Under the pieces are notes generated by a model. The model had not been told where the DNA came from. It made no database searches and saw only the letters and a program-made list of their open reading frames with translations. A stretch of DNA of 64,000 nucleotides. Source: Paralichthys olivaceus (taxonomy: Eukaryota > Chordata > Actinopteri > Pleuronectiformes > Paralichthyidae). The DNA lies in contig NC_091100.1 of NCBI RefSeq assembly GCF_024713975.1, forward strand, positions 11,996,001 to 12,060,000, read 5' to 3'. Both the position numbers and the translations under genes were made by a program. Of this stretch, positions 29,454 to 41,012 are shown in pieces. Within the stretch, counting starts at the first letter, position 1, and each line of letters starts with the position of its first letter.

Positions 29454-34260
<4,807 letters not shown>

Positions 34261-35006
34261 GACTTTAGTCAGCAGGAGAATGTCATTGGCAACAAAACTC
34301 GACGAGCGGCTGGTCTGGTCTTGTGCCGTGTTCACGTGAAGGGGCAGACTCAGTAAAAAGGAGAGCCTCCTGTTAGTTCGTGGTTTTGATGATTTCCTCC
34401 AATCCAAATGATACTAGGCCCAGAATCCACTGATACAAATACCGATAATAATACTTATTTCAATAAATAAAACCAGCTTGTGTATAAAAGGCAAAAAGAT
34501 TAACCAACTAAACGGCAATAGTTTTTTATTAAGCTACATTGGTTGTATAAGAATGTATCTCCCCACAAGATAATAACAATGAACCACTTGAATTTGATTA
34601 AAATGAAACCACCTCCTAATGTTTTTATTTACCCAATCCACCAAGCAGTTCTATCAACACCCTGCAGTTTATTTCACAGAGCATTAAAATGACAACATAA
34701 AATAAAACTGAGGTACTATTTCCCCACTGTGCTTGCAGATCGTGAATGCGGCAGGCAGAACCACACAAAATATTGAAAGATAAATAAACACGATCTATAA
34801 ATATATAGAGTAAATATATAAATAGTAATATTCCAGTTTACAGCTTCGTGTTGTTTCCTCACATTTCTTATTATCGAATATTTGAGCGTTGTCGTCGATG
34901 TCGTATCGACGCGTTGATCGTCTACTAATGCCTGATGACGTTACGTACGTGCTCTACAACAGCGTGGTGACGTCCTTCCGTCCTCCTTTCCTCTGCTACC
35001 GGCGAG
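34261..35006. promoter_or_regulatory. Shared lias/rpl9 intergenic promoter region
   Basis: The lias start codon (34260, minus) and rpl9 exon 1 (about 34975-35006, plus) are head to head about 0.7 kb apart, as in human. Near the rpl9 side are TGACGTTACG (about 34936), TGACGTCC (34968-34975) and an ETS-like CTTCCG. These are followed by a long pyrimidine tract (34973-34996) that fits a 5' TOP transcription start. Exon 1 is non-coding and ends GGCGAG|GTGAGG at 35006. Confidence 0.65.
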
Positions 35007-35560
35007 GTGAGGATAAGCAAGAATTTCCTCCCGCAGCTTTTATCTAACTCCATCTTTGTAAATTAAACATGTTTGAGTTTTTATCTTCAACCATCACACG
35101 TGTAGAGCATTGTATTTCACGTCACATGCTGTATTTTACCTCTACACGATCTGTAGAAGTAGATATATTGGTTTATTGTGTATCGCTGTGTTTCCAGGCC
35201 TGACGCCGCTGAGGGCCGCGGCAGCTTTTTCCATGATTATTTCTAAAAGCACATTTTCGTGTGTTTCCCGTTTTCACTCTCAGTCACAATCCTGCTGGAC
35301 ACGTGTGATTGTTCAGTGTAACACAAGTGAAGCAACAGTCTAGCTAATGTAGCTCCATGATAGCATTAGCATCAGTGGTAGCAGATGTATGGCAGTGTGG
35401 CTGTTGACATTAACCAAACTCCAACATGTCGCCTTAACCCAGATTTGATATTACCTCCCCAACCTGACTCTAGAACGTGGATTCTTAAAAGTGACCCAGT
35501 TGTCATAACGTGTGTGATCGGGCCTCACAGCCTCTGACATGCTGTGTTTGTCCCCACAGA

Positions 35561-38500
35561 ATGAAGACCATTCTCAGCAGTCAGACTGTCGACATCCCCG
35601 ACAAAGGTAAGTCTGTCTGAACGATCCTGTGCATTCGTCCCGCTTCTTGAACCTGAAGCGGCTCCTCACACCGTCTCCTGTCTGCTCTCTTGTTGTGGTG
35701 CAGTCGAGGTGAGGCTGAAGGGCCGGACGGTGATTGTCAAGGGGCCCCGTGGCAAACTGACCAGACAGTTCAACCACATCAACCTGGAGCTCAGCCTGCT
35801 GGGCAAGAAACAGAAGAAGGTAAGAGGCAACCAGGAAGCAGCTCTCATATCGGTCTACTGCAGTAAACACTCATTTAAATATACATTGTGTGAAATGCTG
35901 GTGTTGAAGAGATTCTTGTAGTAATGGAGGATACACAGTCATCCCCAGCTCCCCTCAACATTTAGAGGGTGAATAGTTCACACTCTGTTGCTTTCTCATC
36001 CACAGTGTGCAGCTGTATGTTCAGACTAAACCTTAAACAATACATCTGCTCTTTATTAAACTGCTGACCCTCGACTAGAGGCTGAGCTCAGTGGAGCGTT
36101 TATCAGTCACAGGGTAAAATGTTGCTGTAGGTGGGAGACATTCTGTTTCCAATTGAACTCAATGTCATATTACGCATTTAATTTCCCAACTGCTGGAGAG
36201 ATTCATCTTATCAACATAGAAGCTGAGAATGTGTCAGTGTTGTGATTGCAGCTTATTTCTGCTCCCTCCAAGTGTCACTGCAGGATTTATAACTAAACAA
36301 TGTGTTGGTTGGTTTAAATGGTAAAATCATTATCACACTAAGTAATGTGTGCAACAGTTGTTAGGCATGTGCTCATTAGATAACTTAATTAAAATCTCCT
36401 TGATGTATAGAATGATACTCAAGTCCCATCCTCACGAGGGTTGGGACTAACATTTTTCCATGTGTTTCATAGTGTGGGAAATGGCAGGAAATCATTAAAA
36501 TCACAACAGCCAGAGATGCATTTGTCTTTAGAATATTAGTTTCAGACTCATGAGACTCACTGACTCTGAAAGCAGAAATATCTGCCTTAAAAGAGGCTGG
36601 ATTAAGAAATGTGGTGTTTTATTAATTGACCACATTGTATCAGAAATGAACGTGAGTCACTGTTCTCCTCAGCTTCGTGTGGATAAATGGTGGGGAAACA
36701 GGAAGGAGCTGGCCACAGTCCGCACCATCTGCAGCCATGTCCAGAACATGATCAAGGGCGTCACTTTGGTGAGACTTCAGTTCTTTGAGTTATTGACTGT
36801 GACCAGAGTTAAGGTTCAAGCCGTCTGTAATAATTTGTCTTCTTGGTCTGGCTCGGTGACTCACTCTTCTGTCCGTCTGCAGGGTTTCCGGTATAAAATG
36901 CGTTCTGTGTACGCCCATTTCCCCATCAACGTCGTTATCCAGGAAAATGGCACCATGGTGGAGATCAGAAACTTCCTGGGAGAGAAGTACATTCGCCGCG
37001 TCAGAATGAGAGCTGGTGAGTCCTCAGACTAACATTGTAGCGTCTGTAAGGTCAAAGGTGTTTAAGTATTTAATGCTTTGAAAATGGGTCTGGATGCATA
37101 TTTAAGATTTTTCTCACAAGGTTAGACTATGAATGATACGATGATAAAACACCTGCATCAGAATAAATGTGAGGATTTTTTTTGTGTGAATTAGAATCAA
37201 GTGTAACCAGAGATTAGATCACGTTTCATGCAAATACATTTTACAAGTTACCAAACAGCTCATTGTGATGTTGCTGTGTATTTTGGGTTGTATTCTAACC
37301 CTATCTAGTAGACTAGATTATATAACCAGATATATAAATATAACCTGCTATAAAAAACACTGTAGACTGAGACCAGGATTAAGCGACAGTGTTATAAAGC
37401 AGCTCTGTCACCTCCTGTCCATTGGACCACTTGTTATACTTGTACTGGACATGTGGTGATTTCTTCTGTCTGTCTCTCAGGTGTGGTCTGTTCAGTCTCA
37501 GCGGCCCAGAAGGACGAGCTGGTTCTGGAAGGCAATGACATTGAGCTGGTGTCAAACTCATGTATGTTACTGCTTTTCTTTCAGACAGAAATTTCTCTGC
37601 ATATTATAACTCAAATTTGTAGAACTATGCCACTATGTCCTCAATGTATCCTCCTTGATATTGAGCCTCCACAGTCGCCCCCAATAAGATGCTGCAAGTT
37701 TTCATGAGCGTTTCAGGCAGGATACCTGATATAATTCTTTCACTTCAGGCAGCTTCATGTCAAGTACTACATTCATCAAACAAATGAACTTTGCAGTTAA
37801 ATGATGCAGAGGCGATATCACAGAAATCTGTTGATGGCATGTGATTGACAGACGGCTGGTACCTCTCCTAAAACTGTATACTTTCACATCGCCCCCCCCC
37901 TCCTCCTGCTCTACAGAATAGATCATTACTTCCCTGAACATCAGTGGTGTTTACACTTTTCTGTCGTCAGATAGTAGGAGAATATTACGTTTCCTGTCAA
38001 AGTGAAGTAATATTCTTCCTCATTACACTGAGGTGTACTGATTTGTTTCATCATCAATAAGATGGAAAATGTCGACGTAGAAAAGTGTTTTTTGTTTGAG
38101 TTATGTGAAATGTATGTGTTAATTCTGGCACTTCAGTACTTGATATATTTGTAGTGATTCCAAAGAGTAAATTGAACGTTTTTTAGAGCCTTGAACTGAA
38201 AACATTGATGGTTTCAGTGAAACCAATAATGTATGTTCAAAAATGTTTACATATTTCAACTGAATACAATTATCTCACATCACTCTATACATTGCAGTCC
38301 CTTGAGAGAGGGGACGTAGAATCCCTGAACTACTGACTCAGTCACAAGTGACATCAATGTTCAACACCTTTATTCCTCTTCAGTTCATTTCTTGTTTGTA
38401 GGATTGTTAGAATCCACCATCTACACTCTGACAACTGATGGTAGATTTTATATTTAGTTGTCACCTTGTACCACAATGCATCTCTCCCTTCCATCCTCCT

Positions 38501-39586
38501 CTGTATTGATTGTGATCTGTGTGTGATGTGACATGCTGCTTATCTCCCCAACCTCTCTGTTCCAGCTGCTCTGATCCAACAGGCCACCACAGTCAAAAAT
38601 AAGGATATCAGAAAGTTCTTAGACGGTATTTACGTCTCTGAGAAGGGAACAGTAGTGGCGCCGGATCAGTAAAAGTTACATCTGCAGTCTTAGAGGTTAG
38701 ACAACGCCGCCAAAGCCTCCTCTGTGGCCTACAGGGAAAAACCTCTTCTTTTTTTTACTTTTCTGAGTGTTCCTTAACTTTGTCTGTCTTTGTAAAAGCA
38801 TGTTTCTGTTTTTTTCTTTGTTTCCAATGTGTAGAAGTGTGAGGACGGGTCAATATGATTACAACAAATCCTTGTTTTTGCATTCTCTTGTGTGTTCAGT
38901 ATTATTGCCATAACTGTTTACAAAATAATTACCCAGAGCCAAAGATGTCACTTAGAATTTCTTCTTCCAAACAGCCCAACAATCAAAAAGATAATCAATT
39001 GGCTTTTATTAAGTGCTCTCATTTGAGAAGCTAGAACCAACAAATGACTGAAACCATTGATATGAAAATAGTTTTCTGGTTTTATTTGTTAATGGACTTA
39101 TTATTTTGTCTCGTAAAAGTTAGCTATTATATCGTGGAACAGCAAATTACTGTTCTCACCACAACTGGACCTAATTTCTGAAACTGACAAAAGTTTTTTG
39201 GGGGATTTATGAATTTCTTAATGTCTCTGTTGGCTCTTGAAATGTAAGCCAACTGGTTAATATTAATATTTGATATTTCAGTCCTATCCTTTTGATAAGT
39301 TAAACAGCATGCATCAAAAATATAAGTTATCCAAATGTATTGATAATTTTCGGATTAAATATCTCTTCTCTGCTCATGTCTTGCAGGCTGTCAGGCCTTG
39401 TTAGATTTGTGTTTAACTACAGACATGTTGCTGTATGTGACCTTATTTTCCTCTCACACTTGTCTCTTTTTTTCAGCGGCCTTGATCCAACAGGCCACCA
39501 CAGTCCGGAAGAAGGACATCAGGAAGTTCCTGGACGGCATCTACATCAGCGAGAGGACCACTGTGGTGGAGACCAATGCTGAATAA
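35561..39586 (+). CDS. rpl9: RPL9 (uL6), 60S ribosomal protein L9
   Basis: A large-subunit ribosomal protein of the uL6 family. Shared coding exons: 35561-35606, 35704-35819, 36673-36768, 36883-37015, 37481-37561, then a last exon present in two versions: 38566-38672 (A) or 39477-39586 (B). The protein starts [15 protein letters not shown] and matches human almost throughout ([35 protein letters not shown]). With exon A it is 192 aa, with exon B 193 aa; human is 192. The coding start is at the head of exon 2 and exon 1 is a short TOP leader. The canonical poly(A) signal AATAAA (39609-39614) follows exon B closely. Confidence 0.98.
38566..38672 (+). CDS. rpl9: rpl9 alternative last exon A
   Basis: It follows a TCTCTGTTCCAG acceptor in phase 1 and encodes [16 protein letters not shown], then [19 protein letters not shown] and stop. 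This version is nearer to the human C-terminus ([16 protein letters not shown]). I see no AATAAA between its stop and exon B (an ATTAAA is near 39354), so its 3' end is unclear. Confidence 0.75.
39477..39586 (+). CDS. rpl9: rpl9 alternative last exon B
   Basis: It follows a strong CTCTTTTTTTCAG acceptor, also in phase 1, and encodes [16 protein letters not shown], then [20 protein letters not shown] and stop. It agrees with exon A at about 26 of 31 alignable residues, many codons differ silently, and the last few residues are unlike. A canonical poly(A) signal lies 23 bases past the stop. Confidence 0.85.
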
Positions 39587-40477
39587 ATGTTCTCGTTCTC
39601 TTACGACCAATAAAATTACCATCTTTTCCAGTTAATCTCTGGTTGTTTGTTGCCTTTATTGGACACTGCTGCAGCTCAATGTACCTGTGGCACTAGTTTT
39701 AAAAAGGAATAGAAATTAAAGGTGATCAGAAACTGAACATAAACTCTAAACAATTGTTAAAATGTGATGGAAATGGATTCTGAAACTGAAAAATCACAAT
39801 TTATCAACACAATTTTAAGACATGAAATTGTTTATCTTATGGATAAAAAGCAAAAAAATTGAAACCCAACATGTATTTACACTTGTTGATTTTATTCTTT
39901 AATAATAAGCAAAAAACACTTAAGGTGGTGCTGTGGTTGTTTATTCCTGATTATTTAAAAATATGTCTCAGGTTTGAACTGACATTGAACTATGGTCTGA
40001 GGGGAGTGAACTGGATTTCTGCTGAACAACTTAACCTGACGTCTAATCATCATTCAATCTGATCTCTTTACTCCCAGTGTGTCTCTGTTTGTGACGTTTC
40101 AGCATAAAGTCTCAACAAGGTACATAAAAGGTTTTGAACAAGAGGTCAACCCTATCTCCTCCAGTTTCTATAGCATACTGCACAGATCAGGGCTGAAACT
40201 AAGTGAATATCATTTCTTCAGACAGTAATGTGGCCTCCCTAAATGAAAGGTCAGACTCAGGAAACGGTTGAAAAATTAAACTGCAGACAATGTAAAATTT
40301 AATTACTTATTAAAGGGGGGTTGCAAATTGTACCTTTTTTAAACAAACAGTAATGTATCTCCAATCTGTCTTTTTAATGACAGAATTTAGTATTAATTCT
40401 AAAACGTGGAAAGGCATTTACTAACTAATTTATTTGAAACATATTCAAAGTATTACAATCCCACTTTATCTTTTGAA

Positions 40478-40600
40478 TAGTAATAATGATAAACTGTATT
40501 CGTATAGCACTTTTCAAAACAAACTGATCAAAAAAATGAATTTAAAGAAAATGTCATTCAATGTCAAAATCGGCTAAATAAAAGAACAATATAATATAAT
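40478..40600. repeat. Degenerate family C repeat
   Basis: ATAAACTGTATTCGTATAGC then ACTTTTCAAAACAAAC resembles the TATAGCGCTTTTCAAAACAAAG end of a common fish repeat. Confidence 0.4.
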
Positions 40601-41012
40601 TAAAATAGTCAAAGATGAAGAATGACTTAAACATTAAACATTTAATGAATGTTCCTTTTGTTTTGGGGCAGTATTTTATTTTATTTTAATAATAAAACAA
40701 GATGACTTATTTTTTAACTTGTTGTCTTTCACTTTATTTTAATCATTAAAAAACACGTACAATGTCCGGAAAACATTTATCTTGTAAATATAAAAACTCA
40801 AATATTCTAAATATTCTAAATAAATAAATAAAGCAAAAACAATATAAAATCATTAAAGATGGCGATGTTTCCATCTAGAATATAATCGTACAAACTGACC
40901 ATGATATATTTAGTGTAGATGATGTTTTTAACGTGTTGTCTTCATTTTATTCTTATGAATAAAAACAACAACGCAGAGTGACGCACAGGACGTAGACGCA
41001 GCTCGCGGTTTT

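Follow-up and report, generated by a model that had tools for sequence, protein, structure and literature searches.

The question raised by this locus is whether a single copy of rpl9, the gene for the ribosomal protein uL6, can end its protein in two different ways. The window, by which we mean the whole stretch of 64,000 nt that was analysed, is part of contig NC_091100.1 of Paralichthys olivaceus. In this window rpl9 is located on the plus strand, with the ATG at position 35561. Its coding exons are the following (positions refer to the window and a slash marks the exon boundary in splice-site motifs).

35561..35606, plus strand: first coding exon, with the ATG; acceptor CCCCACAG immediately upstream, donor AAG/GTAAGT
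35704..35819, plus strand: coding exon 2, from the joined frame and the protein search of the own genome
36673..36768, plus strand: coding exon 3; the boundary 36768/GTGAGA yields VTLGF, matching the uL6 chains of the PDB
36883..37015, plus strand: coding exon 4, again from the joined frame and the own-genome protein search
37481..37561, plus strand: coding exon 5, common to both forms, ending in phase 1 with the donor CAT/GTATGT
38566..38672, plus strand: exon A, an ancestral-type uL6 C-terminus, with the TAA at 38670-38672
39477..39586, plus strand: exon B, a diverged uL6 C-terminus, with the TAA at 39584-39586

The domain Ribosomal_L6 (PF00347) was detected in two stretches of each predicted protein, with E values of 1.1e-30 for the form ending in exon A and 3.9e-30 for the form ending in exon B. 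uL6 chains of the PDB match the rpl9 protein down to an E value of 4e-112. Upstream of rpl9 and head to head with it, lias is encoded on the minus strand (LIAS_N, PF16881, E 7e-13), and rfc1, recognised by eye, lies downstream. The human RPL9 gene has 8 exons and also neighbours lias. A strong donor-like site, GAG/GTGAGG, follows a pyrimidine-rich stretch at 35006 (score 10.2 in the simple matrix that was used to score splice sites) and is likely the end of an rpl9 5' UTR exon. The rpl9 leader was judged by eye to be of the TOP type.

Joining 37561 to exon A yields a protein of 192 aa and joining it to exon B one of 193 aa, with no internal stop in either. Both exons, of 107 nt (A) and 110 nt (B), begin behind an AG acceptor (CTGTTCCAG/CTG for exon A and TTTTTTCAG/CGG for exon B) and complete the codon that is split after 37561 (phase 1). 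This arrangement of acceptors, phase, open frames and protein lengths had been stated in the original prediction and was confirmed base for base. Over 31 aligned codons, 26 residues are identical and 5 are replaced. Codons differ at 16 of the 31 positions, 11 of them silently, which agrees with the residue count and the excess of silent differences noted before. At the nucleotide level, 23 of the 93 aligned sites differ, namely 6, 4 and 13 at the first, second and third codon position. The final residues diverge as well, as had been noticed: after a common VV, the form with exon A ends in APDQ and the form with exon B in ETNAE, i.e. the last 4 or 5 residues.

Being adjacent and homologous, of equal phase and equipped with their own acceptors, the two exons form a tandem-duplicated pair. 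Mutually exclusive exon pairs are a class of tandemly duplicated alternative exons. The likeness of rpl9 to such systems consists in adjacent homologous exons of equal phase that are alternative in the mature mRNA, the last point being predicted for rpl9 from its sequence. The difference is that both rpl9 copies are last coding exons with a stop, so that inclusion of both would give the form encoded by the first.

With 23 of 93 aligned sites differing between the copies, an assembly artefact or a split haplotype was ruled out. A retrocopy or a second gene supplying one of the exons was also considered. The whole own genome (588 Mb, 25 contigs) was searched with the 192-aa protein, and all six of the six scored candidates fall at this locus, where they correspond to coding exons 2-5, exon A and exon B of rpl9. 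Sequence resembling rpl9 elsewhere in the 588-Mb genome was not found among the best candidates scored, the short first exon being unmatched. Rfam gave no match at the gathering score in 33000-41000 and no relatives were found in IMG/VR. The GTDB scan yielded 2 distant loci, one in a Bathyarchaeota and one in a Parcubacteria MAG record.

To place the two tails, ten distinct PDB chains were aligned: nine of the vertebrate type (7oya, 7qgg, 7cpu, 6swa, 5lzs, 22tu, 11he, 3jaj and 6gz3) and the fly-type chain 4v6w. We take 7oya to be from zebrafish, 4v6w from fly and the others among the vertebrate-type chains from mammals. All nine vertebrate-type chains have the A-type tail and are 190-192 aa long. 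Exon A matches 7oya in 30 of 31 residues, and the sole difference is a serine instead of alanine in codon 1, which results from the last base of exon 5 (T, where alanine needs G). This serine is common to both forms, and because of the same T, exon 5 also has a weaker donor than any of the other four coding exons (6.2 for CAT/GTATGT, 7.2-12.4 for the others). In the 30 codons belonging to A alone there is no replacement compared to 7oya.

Exon B carries five replacements relative to the vertebrate-type tail, namely K to R (the first and the fourth), N to K, V to I and, as the last, G to T. At the first four of these positions all ten chains agree, and at the last one the fly-type chain 4v6w has T. 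By this alignment, exon A keeps the ancestral-type vertebrate tail. The claim that A is nearer to the human C-terminus holds in the sense that A is closer to the vertebrate-type chains. According to a chordate survey that includes tilapia, medaka, fugu, zebrafish and human, zebrafish is the only one of these five with an RPL9 of deviating length (PMC7072992), so tilapia, medaka and fugu should have the human length. The 7oya chain, with 192 aa, is at odds with the listing of zebrafish RPL9 as length-different in that survey (PMC7072992).

The ratio of replacement to silent change between the exons, which the original prediction had proposed to compute, is about 0.10. The Nei-Gojobori comparison of 31 codons gave a pS of 0.635 (14.3 of 22.6 sites) and a pN of 0.123 (8.7 of 70.4 sites), corresponding to a dS of about 1.4 and a dN of about 0.13. 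With only 31 codons compared, the error on dS is wide and the bootstrap range of the ratio extends from 0 to 0.26. Over 35 codons, with the tails included, the ratio is 0.15. The silent sites of codons 11-31 are saturated between A and B. Since the silent sites are near saturation, the duplication is regarded as old. The similarity between A and B extends from 13 nt upstream of the exons to a point inside them, which are the limits expected if the introns diverged long ago.

In simulations with 23 unselected changes on one branch, five or fewer replacements were obtained in 1-2 per 10,000 runs, and a stop was introduced in 43-49% of runs. The comparison covers A and B alone, and the 23 differences are those of both branches together. 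With only 8, 10, 12 or 14 unselected changes on the B branch, five or fewer replacements occurred in 47%, 16%, 3.8% and 0.7% of runs, respectively. For exon A, with simulations started from the sequence of B, zero replacements were observed in 0.1% of runs with 5 unselected changes, and in only 2% with three. As to the proposal that selection kept both exons, the signs at the protein level look strong in A and fair in B, where codon usage is suggestive as well, the changes being unpolarised. The locus holds a real, old and intact duplication of the last exon in a core ribosomal protein gene, and this duplication most likely gives two uL6 C-termini.

The exons also differ in codon usage. G/C is found at 28 of 31 third positions in B, at 16 of 31 in A and at 115 of 157 in exons 1-5 (Fisher's P 0.0016 for A vs B, 0.031 for A vs exons 1-5 and 0.063 for B vs exons 1-5). 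Codons 11-31 of B have G/C at 20 of 21 third positions. Among the single upstream exons, exon 5 has the lowest fraction (0.63) and exon 2 the highest (0.87), with A somewhat below and B somewhat above that spread. The four rpl9 introns measured have a GC content of 34-39%. At its silent sites B resembles a heavily translated gene, and A looks closer to the surroundings, with the protein unchanged. Based on its G/C third positions, B is suggested to be the major exon; A would be conserved but of lesser or narrower use. We infer that an unused copy of B's age should have drifted from G/C third positions. The lower value of A could be the start of decay.

Three further sites are relevant for the 3' end of transcripts that include exon A.

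38695..38696, plus strand: candidate donor GAG/GTTAGA, 23 nt past the stop of A, with 38695 as the last base of the exon; score 5.9
39354..39359, plus strand: ATTAAA, a possible poly(A) signal for exon A
39609..39614, plus strand: AATAAA poly(A) signal from the hexamer scan, which could serve both forms

The acceptor of A scores 8.1 and that of B 11.7, compared to 6.3-11.9 for the five upstream coding acceptors. A's acceptor ranks 11th among the sites listed for 37600-40400, and as nine non-exon sites score higher, its score is weak evidence. The candidate donor at 38695 scores just below all five coding-exon donors. It could join A to the acceptor of B, in which case B would become 3' UTR. 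Nonsense-mediated decay usually follows a 50-55 nt rule, and the junction at 38695 should not trigger it, because A's stop is only 23 nt away. Among the donor-like sites between A and B, AAT/GTAAGC at 39243 scores highest (7.6); it lies 571 nt after A's stop. Joined to the acceptor of B, it would make A transcripts targets of decay, a possible side path. As the main reading, an autoregulatory poison exon was set aside, since the conserved protein sequence of A would then be unneeded.

A canonical poly(A) signal does adjoin exon B, as described before: AATAAA at 39609 lies 23 nt past its last base. Between A's stop and B, a scan for 13 hexamers detected only ATTAAA at 39354 and AATATA at 39319. 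AGTAAA at 38668 overlaps A's stop and AATAAA at 39582 overlaps B's stop. The G + T fraction downstream is 0.63 after AATAAA 39609 vs 0.59 after ATTAAA 39354, which does not separate the two. Use of 39609 by A appears as likely as a poly(A) site of its own. Since the poly(A) signal of B can serve A transcripts, there is no need to regard A as an alternative polyadenylation exon.

Two repeats were also seen around these exons. Despite the saturated silent sites of codons 11-31, A and B share an identical block of 23 nt that reaches from codon 3 to 10 (38572-38594 and 39483-39505) and may be due to local gene conversion or a common splicing element; its longest-run P of about 0.03 by codon shuffling is too weak to use. 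An inverted repeat (38272-38283 and 38523-38534, 11 of 12 paired) has its 3' arm over a possible branch point of A, judged by eye. It was equalled in 3% of 60 simple shuffles, which is likewise too weak.

Two intact exons at one locus, with their phase and stops, their age, the conserved protein of A and the contrast in codon usage, are what the DNA presents. The explanation that we favour, with a probability of roughly 0.6, is that an old tandem duplicate of the last coding exon of rpl9 was kept and that two uL6 proteins are made by choice of the 3' splice site. The last coding exon would have been duplicated in tandem together with its acceptor and then retained. With A skipped and 37561 joined to 39477, the product would be the B form, which probably makes up the bulk. 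With 37561 joined to 38566, it would be the A form, which has the vertebrate tail of ancestral type. The A transcripts would keep B and its poly(A) signal downstream as 3' UTR, either unspliced up to 39609 or spliced from 38695. The choice would reduce to whether A's acceptor is used or skipped, and because B remains 3' UTR in A transcripts, neither a device for mutual exclusion nor a second poly(A) site is needed. We infer from the sequence that both exons are spliced, that B is the major one and how A transcripts end.

For an alternative C-terminus of this kind, RPS24 (eS24) is a clear precedent and the nearest one. In human and mouse lemur, the splicing of its C-terminus depends on the cell type (PMC8563012), and another study describes tissue-specific isoforms (PMC11162997). 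Both cases concern a core ribosomal protein gene with a C-terminus varied by alternative splicing, for rpl9 as predicted from its DNA. In RPS24, however, microexons of 3, 18 and 22 nt are included or left out, whereas in rpl9 a whole coding exon of 107 or 110 nt is duplicated and either copy could end the protein.

Paralogues of ribosomal proteins likewise make two forms of one protein available to the cell, and those of RPL22 and RPL3 in fish appear in the chordate survey (PMC7072992). The predicted rpl9 forms differ from these in that they come from one gene and are distinct only within the last 25-26 residues. In the same survey, which covers ribosomal protein genes of 13 chordates, tilapia has paralogues of ten proteins, RPL9 not being among them, and the main text never uses 'splic' or 'alternative' (PMC7072992). 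Among the open-access papers searched, no description of an alternative last exon or an exon duplication in RPL9 was found, and the tail peptides led to a single paper, with a peptide of the A type; genome annotation pipelines may well list two rpl9 transcripts already.

The features that set A apart from B can also be read as signs of loss. Exon A might have been abandoned recently, with B taking over as the only C-terminus and A as yet unbroken; its fewer G/C third positions (16 of 31), an acceptor weaker than that of B and the lack of an adjacent canonical poly(A) signal would all fit. Yet A has zero replacements relative to 7oya in its own 30 codons, although its silent sites are far from those of B, and the abandonment must therefore be very recent, if the silent sites of A moved at all. 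This counter-argument weakens if the third positions of A are simply ancestral, in which case A may have changed little. We consider such an abandonment unlikely. Less probable again is the reverse, in which A is the working coding exon and B serves mainly as 3' UTR with a poly(A) signal, its frame being a leftover. The conserved protein retained by A, the A-type tail of the nine vertebrate-type PDB chains and the human length of RPL9 in tilapia, medaka and fugu (PMC7072992) are in line with it, and five replacements are not unusual if the branch of B was short. Against this stand the intact frame of B, a stop near the expected place and the conservative nature of its replacements, together with its G/C third positions, which amount to 90% although the surroundings are AT-rich and the silent sites have reached saturation.

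A stronger form of the favoured reading, two proteins by splice-site choice, is a regulated switch, with A and B serving different tissues or stages and the resulting ribosomes behaving differently. It is possible, although we regard it as doubtful. The long retention of both exons speaks for it, as does the cell-type-specific C-terminal splicing of RPS24 in human and mouse lemur (PMC8563012). The position of the protein does so as well: uL6 has helix 97 on one side and ES39 on the other and places a loop at helix 95 of the sarcin-ricin loop. In addition, a human uL6 missense variant is incorporated into ribosomes and increases readthrough at UAG and UGA stops (PMC6954397). However, most of the replacements in B are conservative (K/R twice, V/I and N/K), and the diverged copies RPL9B, RPL9C and RPL9D of Arabidopsis uL6 behave as dosage copies (PMC8647923).

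It is not settled whether ribosomes that differ in their proteins do different work. Many cases of varied ribosome composition involve paralogous genes, which differ in dosage as well. Tentatively, one rpl9 may supply two kinds of 60S subunit, their uL6 tails near the sarcin-ricin region being either ancestral or diverged, in proportions that splicing would set by tissue or life stage and that would have been long kept in fish evolution. Such a switch is a hypothesis rather than a result, though a well-posed one that is cheap to test. A pair of alternative exons within a single gene, with one promoter, would separate composition from dosage, which could be tested by deletion of either exon. 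To our knowledge, few core ribosomal proteins have alternative ends made by splicing. If the reading is true, uL6, which lies beside the factor-binding region, would join them.
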